Positions 12,616 to 15,139 of a DNA stretch of 33,104 nucleotides are shown here, piece by piece. The DNA is from an uncultured Bacilli bacterium (lineage in GTDB: Bacteria; Bacillota_I; Bacilli_A; RFN20; CAG-449). Location: contig CANQWG010000013.1 of NCBI GenBank assembly GCA_947627505.1, forward strand, positions 1-33,104. Direction: 5' to 3'. Made by a program: the position numbers and the translations under genes. Within the stretch, counting starts at the first letter, position 1; every line of letters starts with the position of its first letter. A model generated the notes under the pieces. The model was not told where the DNA came from. It saw only the letters and a list, made by a program, of their open reading frames with translations, and made no database searches.

Positions 12616-14097
12616 ATGGATAATAAATTAACAGAACAAGAGATGATTAGACGTCAAAAATTGGATAAACTTAAAGAATTGGGAATTGATCCGTTCGGTC
12701 ATAAATTTGAAAGAAACGCTAATTCAAAAAGCATCCATGAATATGATGGTTTTCAAAAGGAAGAATTGGAAGAAAAAAACATTCTAGTTAAAATGGCCGG
12801 AAGAATTATGACTATCCGCAAAATGGGAAAAGCTTCTTTTTTCCACGTTCAAGATCGTGAAGGTTTATTTCAATGCTTCATTTCTAAAGACGGAGTCGGA
12901 GAAGCACAATATGAATTATTCAAAATGGCGGATATCGGTGATATTGTCGGTATTCAAGGAAAGTTAATGAAAACAAATACCGGTGAATTGACAGTTAAAG
13001 TTTCAAATTATGAACATTTGACTAAAGCGTTAAGACCATTACCTGAAAAATTCCATGGGTTAACCGATATAGAGGAACGATATCGTCGTCGTTATGTCGA
13101 TCTTATAATGAATCCGGAAGCTAAAAAAGTTGCTTTGACAAGACCGAAAATTATTAGATCCTTACAAAGATATCTCGATTCTGAAGGATTTGTGGAAGTT
13201 GAAACTTCGGTTCTATGTTCGGTTTTAGGCGGTGCCGCAGCGCGTCCATTTAAAACGCATCACAATGCGCTCAATAAAGATTTCACATTAAGAATCGCAA
13301 CCGAATTACCATTAAAGCGATTATTGGTCGGTGGTTTAGAAAGAGTATATGAAATCGGAAGACTTTTCAGAAACGAAGGTATGGATACTAAACATAACCC
13401 TGAATTTACTACAGTCGAAGCGTATATGAGTTATGGCGATATATCGGATATGGCTAATCTTGTCGAAAATATTTTTAGAACCATCGCTCAAGAAGTTTGC
13501 GGATCTACAGTAATTCCATATGGTGATTTGATGATTGATCTACAAAGTCCGTTTAAACGAAAGACAATGGCTGAATTAGTCAAAGAGAAAACCGGTGTTG
13601 ATTTTACGCAGCCGTTAACTTTTGAAGAAGCTAAAGCTTTAGCGGCTCAACATAATGTCCCGGTTGAAAAACACCATACCGGAGTCGGTCACATCTTAAA
13701 TTCTTTCTTTGAAGTTTTTTGTGAAGATACATTGGTGCAACCGACTTTGGTTTTTGGTCACCCGATAGAAATATCGCCGTTAGCCAAAAAAGGAAAAGAT
13801 CCGCGTTTCACTGAAAGATTCGAATTATTTATCGGAGGAAGAGAATACGCGAATGCTTTTACCGAACTTAATGATCCTATCGATCAAAGAGAAAGATTCT
13901 TGAATCAATTAAAAGAAAAAGAATTAGGTAACGATGAAGCCAATGAAATGGATGTTGACTTTGTCGAAGCTTTGGAATACGGAATGCCTCCGGCTGGTGG
14001 AATCGGAATCGGAATTGATCGTATGGTGATGTTAATGACTAATTCTCCTTCGATTCGTGATGTTATTTTATTCCCGACAATGAAGCCCTTAGATTGA
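12616..14097 (+). CDS. lysS: Lysyl-tRNA synthetase, class II
   Basis: LysS charges tRNA-Lys with lysine in the cytosol. It has 493 residues from ATG 12616. The N-terminal OB-fold anticodon domain covers about 40-150. The class II catalytic core shows motif 2 ([16 protein letters not shown], about 253-268) and motif 3 ([13 protein letters not shown], near 470), and ends with [13 protein letters not shown]. The frame stays open up to 12559, but GGAGG at 12601-12605 sits 10 nt before 12616 and the shorter form has the normal N-terminus. lysS has its own promoter and is followed at once by a terminator. Its last nine codons are repeated, with changes, at 15060-15086, which suggests that DNA was inserted at its 3' end. 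Confidence 0.97.
14071..14097 (+). repeat. Left copy of the lysS 3'-end direct repeat
   Basis: The last 27 nt of lysS match 15060-15086 at 24 positions, including a 17-bp exact core (14071-14087). The differences after the core (CCC/CCG, GAT/AAC) fall mostly at codon third positions. Confidence 0.85.
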
Positions 14098-14104
14098 CAG
14101 ATAT

Positions 14105-14142
14105 AAGAAAAAACCTTGAGCAGTCAAGGCTTTTTCTTTTTC
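14105..14142 (+). terminator. Terminator immediately after lysS
   Basis: CCTTGA (14114-14119), loop GCAG, TCAAGG (14124-14129), preceded by an A-run and followed by CTTTTTCTTTTT, so it could work in both directions. A related hairpin lies at 15019-15040. Confidence 0.85.
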
Positions 14143-14182
14143 GCCCAGACAGGGCGTGGAAATTTCTTTTTGTGGCTGGGTG

Positions 14183-14191
14183 TGGTAGAAT
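14183..14191 (+). promoter_or_regulatory. Extended -10 element before the YdeI-family gene
   Basis: TGGTAGAAT (14183-14191) is an extended -10 (TGn plus TAGAAT) 42 nt before the gene. No good -35 is seen. A 5-bp GC-only hairpin, CGCCC-AGACA-GGGCG (14142-14156), lies upstream and may mark the start of the foreign DNA. Confidence 0.45.
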
Positions 14192-14232
14192 AAAGCAACG
14201 ATAAACGGGGATTTAGCGAGGCCAAGTAAGGA

Positions 14233-14805
14233 ATGGAGTATAAAAATATTTTACAAGTCGATTGCCGCAAATCATTTCGTGAATGGCTCAGTGTTTATTC
14301 AGAACTAGAGACAGAATGCTGGGTTAATGTAAAGCGTGGGAAGCCTGCTGATGACACCCACTTTTGGTATATTGATGCTGTGGAAGAAGCACTTTGCTAT
14401 GGTTGGATAGATAGCACCCACCGAATCATTGACGGAAAGAGGTTGCAGCGTTTTACACCCCGTAAAAAGGGGAGTAAGTGGACAGAACTAAACAAGGAGC
14501 GAGTTCGTAGATTGGAAGCTTTAGGTCTGATGACTGATGCGGGAAGAGCAGTCCTCACTGTTACGGGAATTCGCAGTTTTCATATTGACCCTGATATTAA
14601 GGCGGCGCTGAAGGCGGCACGGGCGTGGTCAAAGTTCAAATCATTTCATCCTTTATACCAAAGGGTGCGAGCGGGAAATATCGCCTTCTATAAGAAACGA
14701 AATCCAGAGATGTTCGACCAAATGTTGGCACACTTAATCGAGGAGACCAGACAAGGTAAAATGTTTGGCGAATGGAATGACTATGGCAGATTATTAGATT
14801 ATTAA
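14233..14805 (+). CDS. YdeI/OmdA-family protein (bacteriocin-protection type)
   Basis: The 190-residue soluble protein matches the YdeI/OmpD-associated family. The core signature is DAVEEALCYGWIDS (about 48-61), then RFTPRKKGSKWTELN (about 76-90) and RVRRLEALGLMTDAGR. The C-terminal helical region (about 130-190) fits the OmdA domain. Family members are annotated as bacteriocin-protection or peptide-resistance proteins, but the biochemical role is not established. The start has GAGG (14218-14221) 11 nt upstream, and AAGGA directly abuts the ATG. Base composition and codons (GCG, CTG, CGG, AAG) differ clearly from both neighbours. It is the only gene in a segment between two copies of the lysS 3' end, so recent transfer is likely. 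There is no link to lysine-tRNA function. Confidence 0.8.
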   Translation: MEYKNILQVDCRKSFREWLSVYSELETECWVNVKRGKPADDTHFWYIDAVEEALCYGWIDSTHRIIDGKRLQRFTPRKKGSKWTELNKERVRRLEALGLMTDAGRAVLTVTGIRSFHIDPDIKAALKAARAWSKFKSFHPLYQRVRAGNIAFYKKRNPEMFDQMLAHLIEETRQGKMFGEWNDYGRLLDY

Positions 14806-15059
14806 ATTCCCATTTGTCTGGCTGATAATAGTTAAGCGTCGGTTCTGAAATGCCTTTTCTGGGCTCATAAAACAGCAGATAACTAACAGGAAAAAACTGC
14901 CCAAAATTCGGCAGGATCAATCCCATTTCATCTCAATAGCGGGGCGGACGTTGAATGAAAACAAAAGTGATTCTCCCCAAAAATTGTATAAATTCGTATA
15001 AATCAAGCCAAGCAAAACGAAAAAGCCTTGAAAAATCAAAGGATTTTATGCTGCTATTG
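14806..15059 (+). other. Gene-free part of the lysS-3' island
   Basis: No convincing gene is present. A minus-strand frame starting at 14926 runs into the YdeI-family gene and resembles nothing I recognise. Visible structure: a leftward terminator-like hairpin (14891-14914), a tandem GTATAAATTC/GTATAAATC (14986-15004), and GAAAAAGCCTTGA (15019-15031), which is an exact inverted copy of 14124-14136. The base composition of the left half resembles the YdeI-family gene rather than the host core genes. Confidence 0.5.
14891..14914 (-). terminator. Possible leftward terminator in the island
   Basis: Read on the minus strand, CTGCC, an 8-nt loop, GGCAG, then six T (A-run 14891-14896 on the plus strand). 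It could block antisense transcription into the YdeI-family gene. The stem has only 5 bp. Confidence 0.4.
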
Positions 15060-15086
15060 TTCCCGACAATGAAGCCGTTAAACTGA
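15048..15086 (+). pseudogene. Displaced 3' remnant of a lysS gene
   Basis: From 15054 the frame reads [10 protein letters not shown] and then TGA, against [10 protein letters not shown] at the end of the intact lysS. The 17-bp core 15060-15076 is identical to 14071-14087. Flanking codons differ (CTA TTG against ATT TTA; CCG against CCC; AAC against GAT). Such coding-type divergence suggests the tail of a once-functional lysS rather than a recent exact duplication. A terminator follows directly, as expected at a lysS 3' end. Confidence 0.7.
15060..15086 (+). repeat. Right copy of the lysS 3'-end direct repeat
   Basis: This is the partner of 14071-14097, 989 bp apart. With it, the repeats bracket the YdeI-family island like attachment-site copies or the junctions of a homologous replacement. 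Confidence 0.85.
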
Positions 15087-15103
15087 AAAAACTTACATAT
15101 TAT

Positions 15104-15139
15104 AAAAACGTTCGATTTTGAGTCGGACGTTTTTCTTTT
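15104..15139 (+). terminator. Terminator after the lysS remnant
   Basis: AAAACGTTCGA (15105-15115) pairs with TCGGACGTTTT (15123-15133), with one T-G pair and a 7-nt loop, then TTCTTTT. It is probably the original lysS terminator of one of the two lineages. Confidence 0.8.

Follow-up and report, generated by a model that had tools for sequence, protein, structure and literature searches.

The interval behind lysS in the window (the whole stretch of DNA analyzed, 33,104 nt from an uncultured Bacilli metagenome-assembled genome, MAG) is probably a composite: the remnant of an element at the lysS 3′ end, and inside it a mobile gene cassette of a wider system, exchanged at short inverted end motifs, or arms. 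This reading rests on sequence comparisons in which boundaries fall at the arms, cargo varies on one platform, the same cargo recurs across platforms, and one cassette is present or absent between near-identical plasmids. That the cassettes form a separate gene capture and exchange system with its own arms and recombinase—centered on gut Clostridia, with lnu(C), catA13, and GNAT cassettes reaching Bacilli, Campylobacterota, and Gammaproteobacteria—is a plausible, still tentative proposal. Such an integron-like set of one-gene cassettes moving between gut bacteria has apparently gone unrecognized so far; the open-access papers searched held no arm sequence in a relevant context.

The working lysS gene ends in FPTMKPLD with its stop codon at 14097, and its last 27 nt recur as a second tail (FPTMKPLN and stop) in which 24 of 27 nt are identical and a 17-bp core is exact (TTCCCGACAATGAAGCC). 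A 27-nt pattern that fits either tail matched at those two places only (0 matches in 100 shuffles). The sequence-only reading had described this repeat, a separate and different terminator behind each tail, and a single foreign-looking YdeI-family gene between them; all three descriptions hold, the tails and hairpins at the positions in the table and the gene as a 190-aa ORF whose GC reaches 0.46 against about 0.30–0.39 in its surroundings. It had also proposed coding-type differences between the tails that continue upstream. The differences between the tails are of coding type; to the left of its core, the distal copy continues as element-type sequence that is also found in locus L108 (AAATCAAAGGATTTTAT...) rather than as extra lysS. 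Rfam returned nothing meaningful at the lysS/YdeI locus, and the window DNA gave no matches to plasmids.

Table. Features of the lysS interval (window coordinates) and plasmids carrying a related platform
Feature	Position	Strand	Remarks
Proximal lysS tail	14071..14097	+	One attachment-site copy, with the stop codon of the working lysS; arrangement recurs in L070 and L108
Terminator-like hairpin behind proximal tail	14114..14129	+	
−10-like TGTGGTAGAAT before left arm	14181..14191	+	Putative platform promoter by comparison with other cassettes
Left arm GATAAACGGGGATTTA	14200..14215	+	Homology among YdeI copies starts inside the arm
YdeI/OmdA-like ORF, cassette cargo	14233..14805	+	190 aa; at least 90% identical in 18 rabbit-gut Clostridia loci
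Right arm TAAATTCCCATTTGTC	14803..14818	+	Begins in the YdeI stop codon; homology stops inside the arm
Right-end module of lysS element	14804..15010	+	Common to L070 and L108; partly to L109 and L110
Distal lysS tail	15060..15086	+	Second attachment-site copy; diverged copy at the same place in G001
Terminator-like hairpin behind distal tail	15104..15134	+	
Peptidase C15 platform plasmids			L272 AP025984.1; L281 NZ_CP109814.1; L282 NZ_CP007182.1; L273 NZ_CP017026.1

A search of the YdeI carriers with the interval recovered two unrelated Oscillospirales genomes in which the lysS tail is likewise duplicated and the right-end module of the window stands next to the distal copy. The order in L070 (Lapin-020 bin94) is lysS, a MobV-relaxase relic, promoter, YdeI, right-end module, and a tail reading FPTMKPQD; the relic matches the end of a MobV-relaxase ORF of L110. 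L108 (Lapin-008 bin55) has lysS, promoter, a pyrophosphatase-like ORF replacing YdeI, the module (84% over 273 nt), and a second tail, and so bears out the expectation of other cargo at the same site. In L110 (G286:C11 60000–66674), a serine recombinase gene, a MobV-type relaxase ORF, and an HTH gene precede a right-end module of the same kind; this locus may represent a more complete relative of the lysS element that sits elsewhere. A full-length parent with the same ends was not found at a lysS 3′ end, and a pattern search for the right-end module gave 0 matches. The right module of L108 matched 36 of 394 genomes, and these were set aside as further elements, being mostly ordinary lysS ends.

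Streptococcal integrative and conjugative elements (ICEs) with tyrosine integrases insert in the lysS 3′ end and leave repeats of its last 17 bp or of 13 bp (PMC4701971, PMC7168690), and CIMEs, about 1.2 kb and larger, are known as decayed elements with both attachment sites retained (PMC7563491). The lysS interval resembles the streptococcal lysS CIMEs and ICEs in its duplicated lysS 3′ end around a cargo segment of ~1 kb that lacks an integrase (PMC7563491), and its 17-bp core compares with ICE repeats of 13–17 bp (PMC4701971). It differs in its hosts, gut Bacilli and Clostridia, and in that a full-length lysS parent was not found. As in a CIME, both attachment-site copies are kept, and the single ORF between the tails leaves no integrase or transfer genes. 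The best reading of 14071–15086 is thus a CIME-like remnant of an element that used the lysS 3′ end as its attachment site. Such an element would have entered by site-specific recombination, presumably through a tyrosine integrase, with duplication of the terminal ~27 bp of lysS, and would then have lost its integrase and transfer genes to become a remnant resembling a cis-mobilizable element.

Three genomes of the same genus were compared (G001, G002, and G003). G001 has the same YdeI gene and a second lysS tail, and the portion of its right-end module from about 14909 onward is missing; in this genome and in many other carriers, the cassette is interrupted by contig breaks, which is consistent with a cassette present in several genomes of one community. 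The YdeI gene is absent from G002 and G003. Presence of gene and second tail in all relatives had been named as evidence against the sequence-only reading; because relatives without the gene exist, that is not the case. The lysS–clpC interval of G003 (L023) contains a different short ORF (MTQYVVKLVFDDGEYYYP...) and so varies within the genus. G003 has a single lysS tail, by eye about equally close to either window tail. It is not an exact empty allele, since different DNA follows that tail, and the predicted allele with one tail joined to the 15104–15139 terminator was not found. The claim that the lysS 3′ end serves as an attachment site is accordingly strengthened by the same structure in two Oscillospirales genomes and falls short on the exact empty allele.

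The sequence-only reading had treated the gene as a passenger and missed its independent mobility: it has inverted end motifs of its own and occurs at many sites unrelated to lysS. In the window, a 16-bp arm motif pair in inverted orientation brackets the ORF, with no other exact match in the genome. The 18 loci with at least 90% identical ORFs lie in unrelated neighborhoods; the carriers, from rabbit gut, are labeled Oscillospiraceae, Lachnospiraceae, Monoglobus, or unplaced Clostridia, with the Bacilli MAG in addition. Their common cassette measures ~600 bp, and homology ends within two short inverted arms (GAYAAATCGGRATTTA ... TAAATTCCCGTTTGTC): column-wise identity is complete from the left-arm ATTT to the right-arm TTAA and drops inside the arms, and each host retains its own spacer on both sides. 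Target-site duplications were not seen on reading the flanks of the copies. At one orthologous site, two Monoglobus MAGs carry a HAD gene and YdeI, respectively, with flanks that align up to the arms on both sides. A copy from a sheep-omasum MAG, 72% identical, has the arms; distant homologs from Bacteroidales and Paenibacillus do not. The window ORF matches Pfam OmdA/YdeI weakly (22.4 bits, below the cut-off of 25.6) and has no match in PADLOC; the family name would suggest a role in protection against peptides or bacteriocins.

The same arms bracket many other, unrelated single genes, whose Pfam names include DUF6487, metallo-beta-lactamase fold, GNAT, and HAD hydrolase, with weak matches to pyrophosphatase and FMN reductase. 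The arm motif is enriched over a reversed control in carrier genomes (for example, 16 vs. 2 and 10 vs. 0). Of 295 genomes from one order, 16 contained a TATAAT–arm–ATG pattern, 22 times in all; the reversed control gave no match. The same pattern matched viral contigs 35 times, about the chance estimate for so large a collection, and those matches were discarded. Start codons mostly lie 10–20 nt 3′ of the left arm. About half of the 40 units listed, with some nine unrelated genes among them, have a right arm that begins exactly at the stop codon; in ten cassettes picked by their left end alone, it lies near the stop codon (combined P about 2e-8). The arms could also serve expression. The promoter position before the arm is kept in other platforms, and a consensus promoter scan did not detect the −10-like sequence of the window. 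In a boundary walk over four cassettes and seven pairs of settings, identity failed within or next to the arms in all but the window/L070 pair, which stays similar past the right arm and also has the lysS right module in common.

Cassettes also follow one another in arrays. On the single 2.69-Mb contig of G412, peptidase E, DUF3795, GNAT, and further ORFs are separated by spacers of about 220 bp that are 91–97% identical over 149 nt, contain a terminator and a promoter, and have 22-bp inverted ends. As single strands, the spacer ends pair over about 7+6+6 bp with single-base bulges, a fold reminiscent of attC; the spacers as a whole score only modestly better than shuffles (z −1.6 to −2.3); covariation between the arms, judged by hand, is weak. 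A cassette-like array at L123/L142 (G282:C8, about 84–88 kb) includes a small ORF pair that by eye resembles a toxin–antitoxin module, such as sedentary integrons also hold.

Known resistance genes occur as cargo. In G414, an array includes lnu(C) (357.8 bits against a cut-off of 300); the site between this gene and the small ORF before it is compact, at about 50 bp. Among collected plasmids and phages, copies of lnu(C) from Enterococcus, Streptococcus, Glaesserella, Cetobacterium, and satellite phages match this region of G414 exactly, from inside the left arm to inside the right arm; arm-bounded examples are L180:8331-8886 (G414:C20), NZ_CP072508.1, NC_012661.1, NZ_CP018188.1, and MK448400.1. 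In streptococci, enterococci, and Glaesserella, a transposase gene of ISSag10 (IS1595-like) precedes lnu(C), and the arm where the two meet looks fused. The Subdoligranulum plasmid OY725856.1 (L278:2480-2600) has GAGAACGAAAAATC directly joined to CCTTTAGGAACTAAAGGG, resembling the G414 platform minus its lnu(C) cassette; the junction is a possible empty platform.

The platform to the right of the G414 lnu(C) is also found in Campylobacter plasmids, where in C. jejuni AP025984.1 it holds catA13 between clear arms. The catA13 of Aeromonas NC_009349.1 matches from arm to arm only. Its capture by a class 1 integron was considered and rejected: intI1 lies nearby on that plasmid, with other DNA between, and the arms are the usual ones. 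In 26 Campylobacter plasmids that share one left platform, the platform leads into catA13, into a GNAT cassette, or straight into the next gene. Two C. coli plasmids (NZ_CP109814 and NZ_CP007182) differ at the platform by precisely one 457-bp GNAT cassette, with flanks identical at 300 of 300 positions before it and 224 of 230 after, a difference that deletion between 14-bp direct repeats could also explain. The same cassette start occurs in a genome of the order Oscillospirales, identical at 71 of 72 positions from the arm and 8 of 33 before it. A promoter–arm platform behind a peptidase C15 gene carries catA13, GNAT, or an aad(6)-sat4 region in Campylobacter plasmids. Because different resistance genes occupy one platform, the Campylobacter resistance region may stem in part from cassette exchange.

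Integrons are the textbook gene-capture platform. The Firmicutes are nearly devoid of them (PMC9024848). The cassettes share with integrons and CALINs single-gene accessory cargo that includes resistance genes, arrays with lineage-specific repeats, stop codons at the repeat, and imperfect inverted ends with a central mismatch. An array in one orientation with conserved folding repeats is present in G412 (~220-bp repeats, inverted ends, modest folding), and gain or loss of a gene with its 3′ site fits the C. coli GNAT difference, whereas YdeI keeps the host spacer on both sides. Unlike in integrons, the spacers carry a terminator and a promoter, and the unit moved between hosts is the gene between the arms rather than a gene plus its whole repeat. 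The core reads (G)GRATTTA / TAAATTCC against GTTRRRY / RYYYAAC in integrons; the attC core is absent, with arms of GRYAAATCGGRATTTR / YAAATTCCCGTTTRTC in all listed cassettes. No integron integrase (TIGR02249) exceeded the cut-off in 30 carrier genomes, among which fragmented MAGs could miss one. Because the core motif differs and the 30 carriers gave no such integrase, we do not file the system as an integron.

The XerC/XerD dif modules (pdif) of Acinetobacter plasmids are likewise gene modules between inversely oriented short sites that shuffle between contexts, carrying resistance or adaptive genes without a recombinase of their own (PMC6449649). Inverse site orientation is present here too. 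The sites are about 16–22 bp rather than 28-bp dif sites of 11+6+11, which the arms by eye do not resemble, and single genes are tightly fitted between them. Mobile insertion cassettes (MICs) share a passenger gene between inverted ends with no transposase inside; they differ from the present cassettes, where no target duplications are seen, platforms are conserved, and unrelated genes are exchanged at one site. Neither target duplications (YdeI flanks, as read) nor an IS with these ends was identified.

These comparisons bear on two other accounts of the cassettes. The arms might be terminal inverted repeats of a non-autonomous, MIC-like transposon unit that a DDE transposase mobilizes in trans, for example one of the IS1595 family, which is found next to lnu(C) and upstream of some Campylobacter cassettes. 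Inverted ends do surround a passenger gene, ISSag10 stands directly before lnu(C), and ISCco2 lies near a Campylobacter platform; yet the YdeI copies lack visible target-site duplications, platform and promoter stay put while the cargo changes, arms sit at the start and stop codons of unrelated genes, and most copies have no transposase nearby, so that we regard this origin as improbable. Somewhat better placed, and still unlikely, is ordinary homologous or short-homology recombination (RecA or slippage) through spacers and arms, with no dedicated enzyme. Spacer identity of 91–97% within one genome is enough for RecA, and 14-bp repeats flank the segment by which the C. coli plasmids differ; against this, hosts have only the ~16–22-bp arms in common, and the cassette nevertheless occurs, arm-bounded, in distant phyla.

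The outer structure has a competitor as well: the second lysS tail could be the scar of an allele replacement or tandem duplication by DNA of relatives, with no attachment-site element involved. The interval has no integrase, the tail differences are of coding type, and the G003 tail is about equally like both copies, all of which such a scar would accommodate. It would not readily explain why two distant hosts have this architecture and right module at lysS, nor why the non-lysS sequence left of the distal core recurs in L108, and we think it a poor candidate beside the integrated-element reading.

In the exchange system as we picture it, a cassette would comprise an ORF and its ribosome-binding site, enclosed by two short inverted arms of which the right one lies at the stop codon or close to it; the platform would contribute a promoter ahead of the left arm and, in many cases, a terminator beyond the right one. 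Exchange, gain, and loss of cassettes would take place at the arms and would most likely be catalyzed in trans by a site-specific recombinase, and arrays would arise where cassettes stand in series, divided by attC-like spacers. A recombinase linked to the cassettes was not found; a XerC-like tyrosine recombinase (G412, G584, and G279) was rejected as the enzyme, being absent among the matches listed for other carriers. Much of the evidence comes from MAGs, with independent support from finished plasmids and the G412 contig.

With a cassette system in Firmicutes, the passage of single genes, known resistance genes included, among gut Clostridia, streptococci, enterococci, Campylobacter, and Aeromonas would be easier to explain. 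Its searchable arms would open the origin and shuffling of these gut genes to direct tests by sequence, and the finished plasmids together with one 2.69-Mb single-contig chromosome provide material for finding the mechanism.
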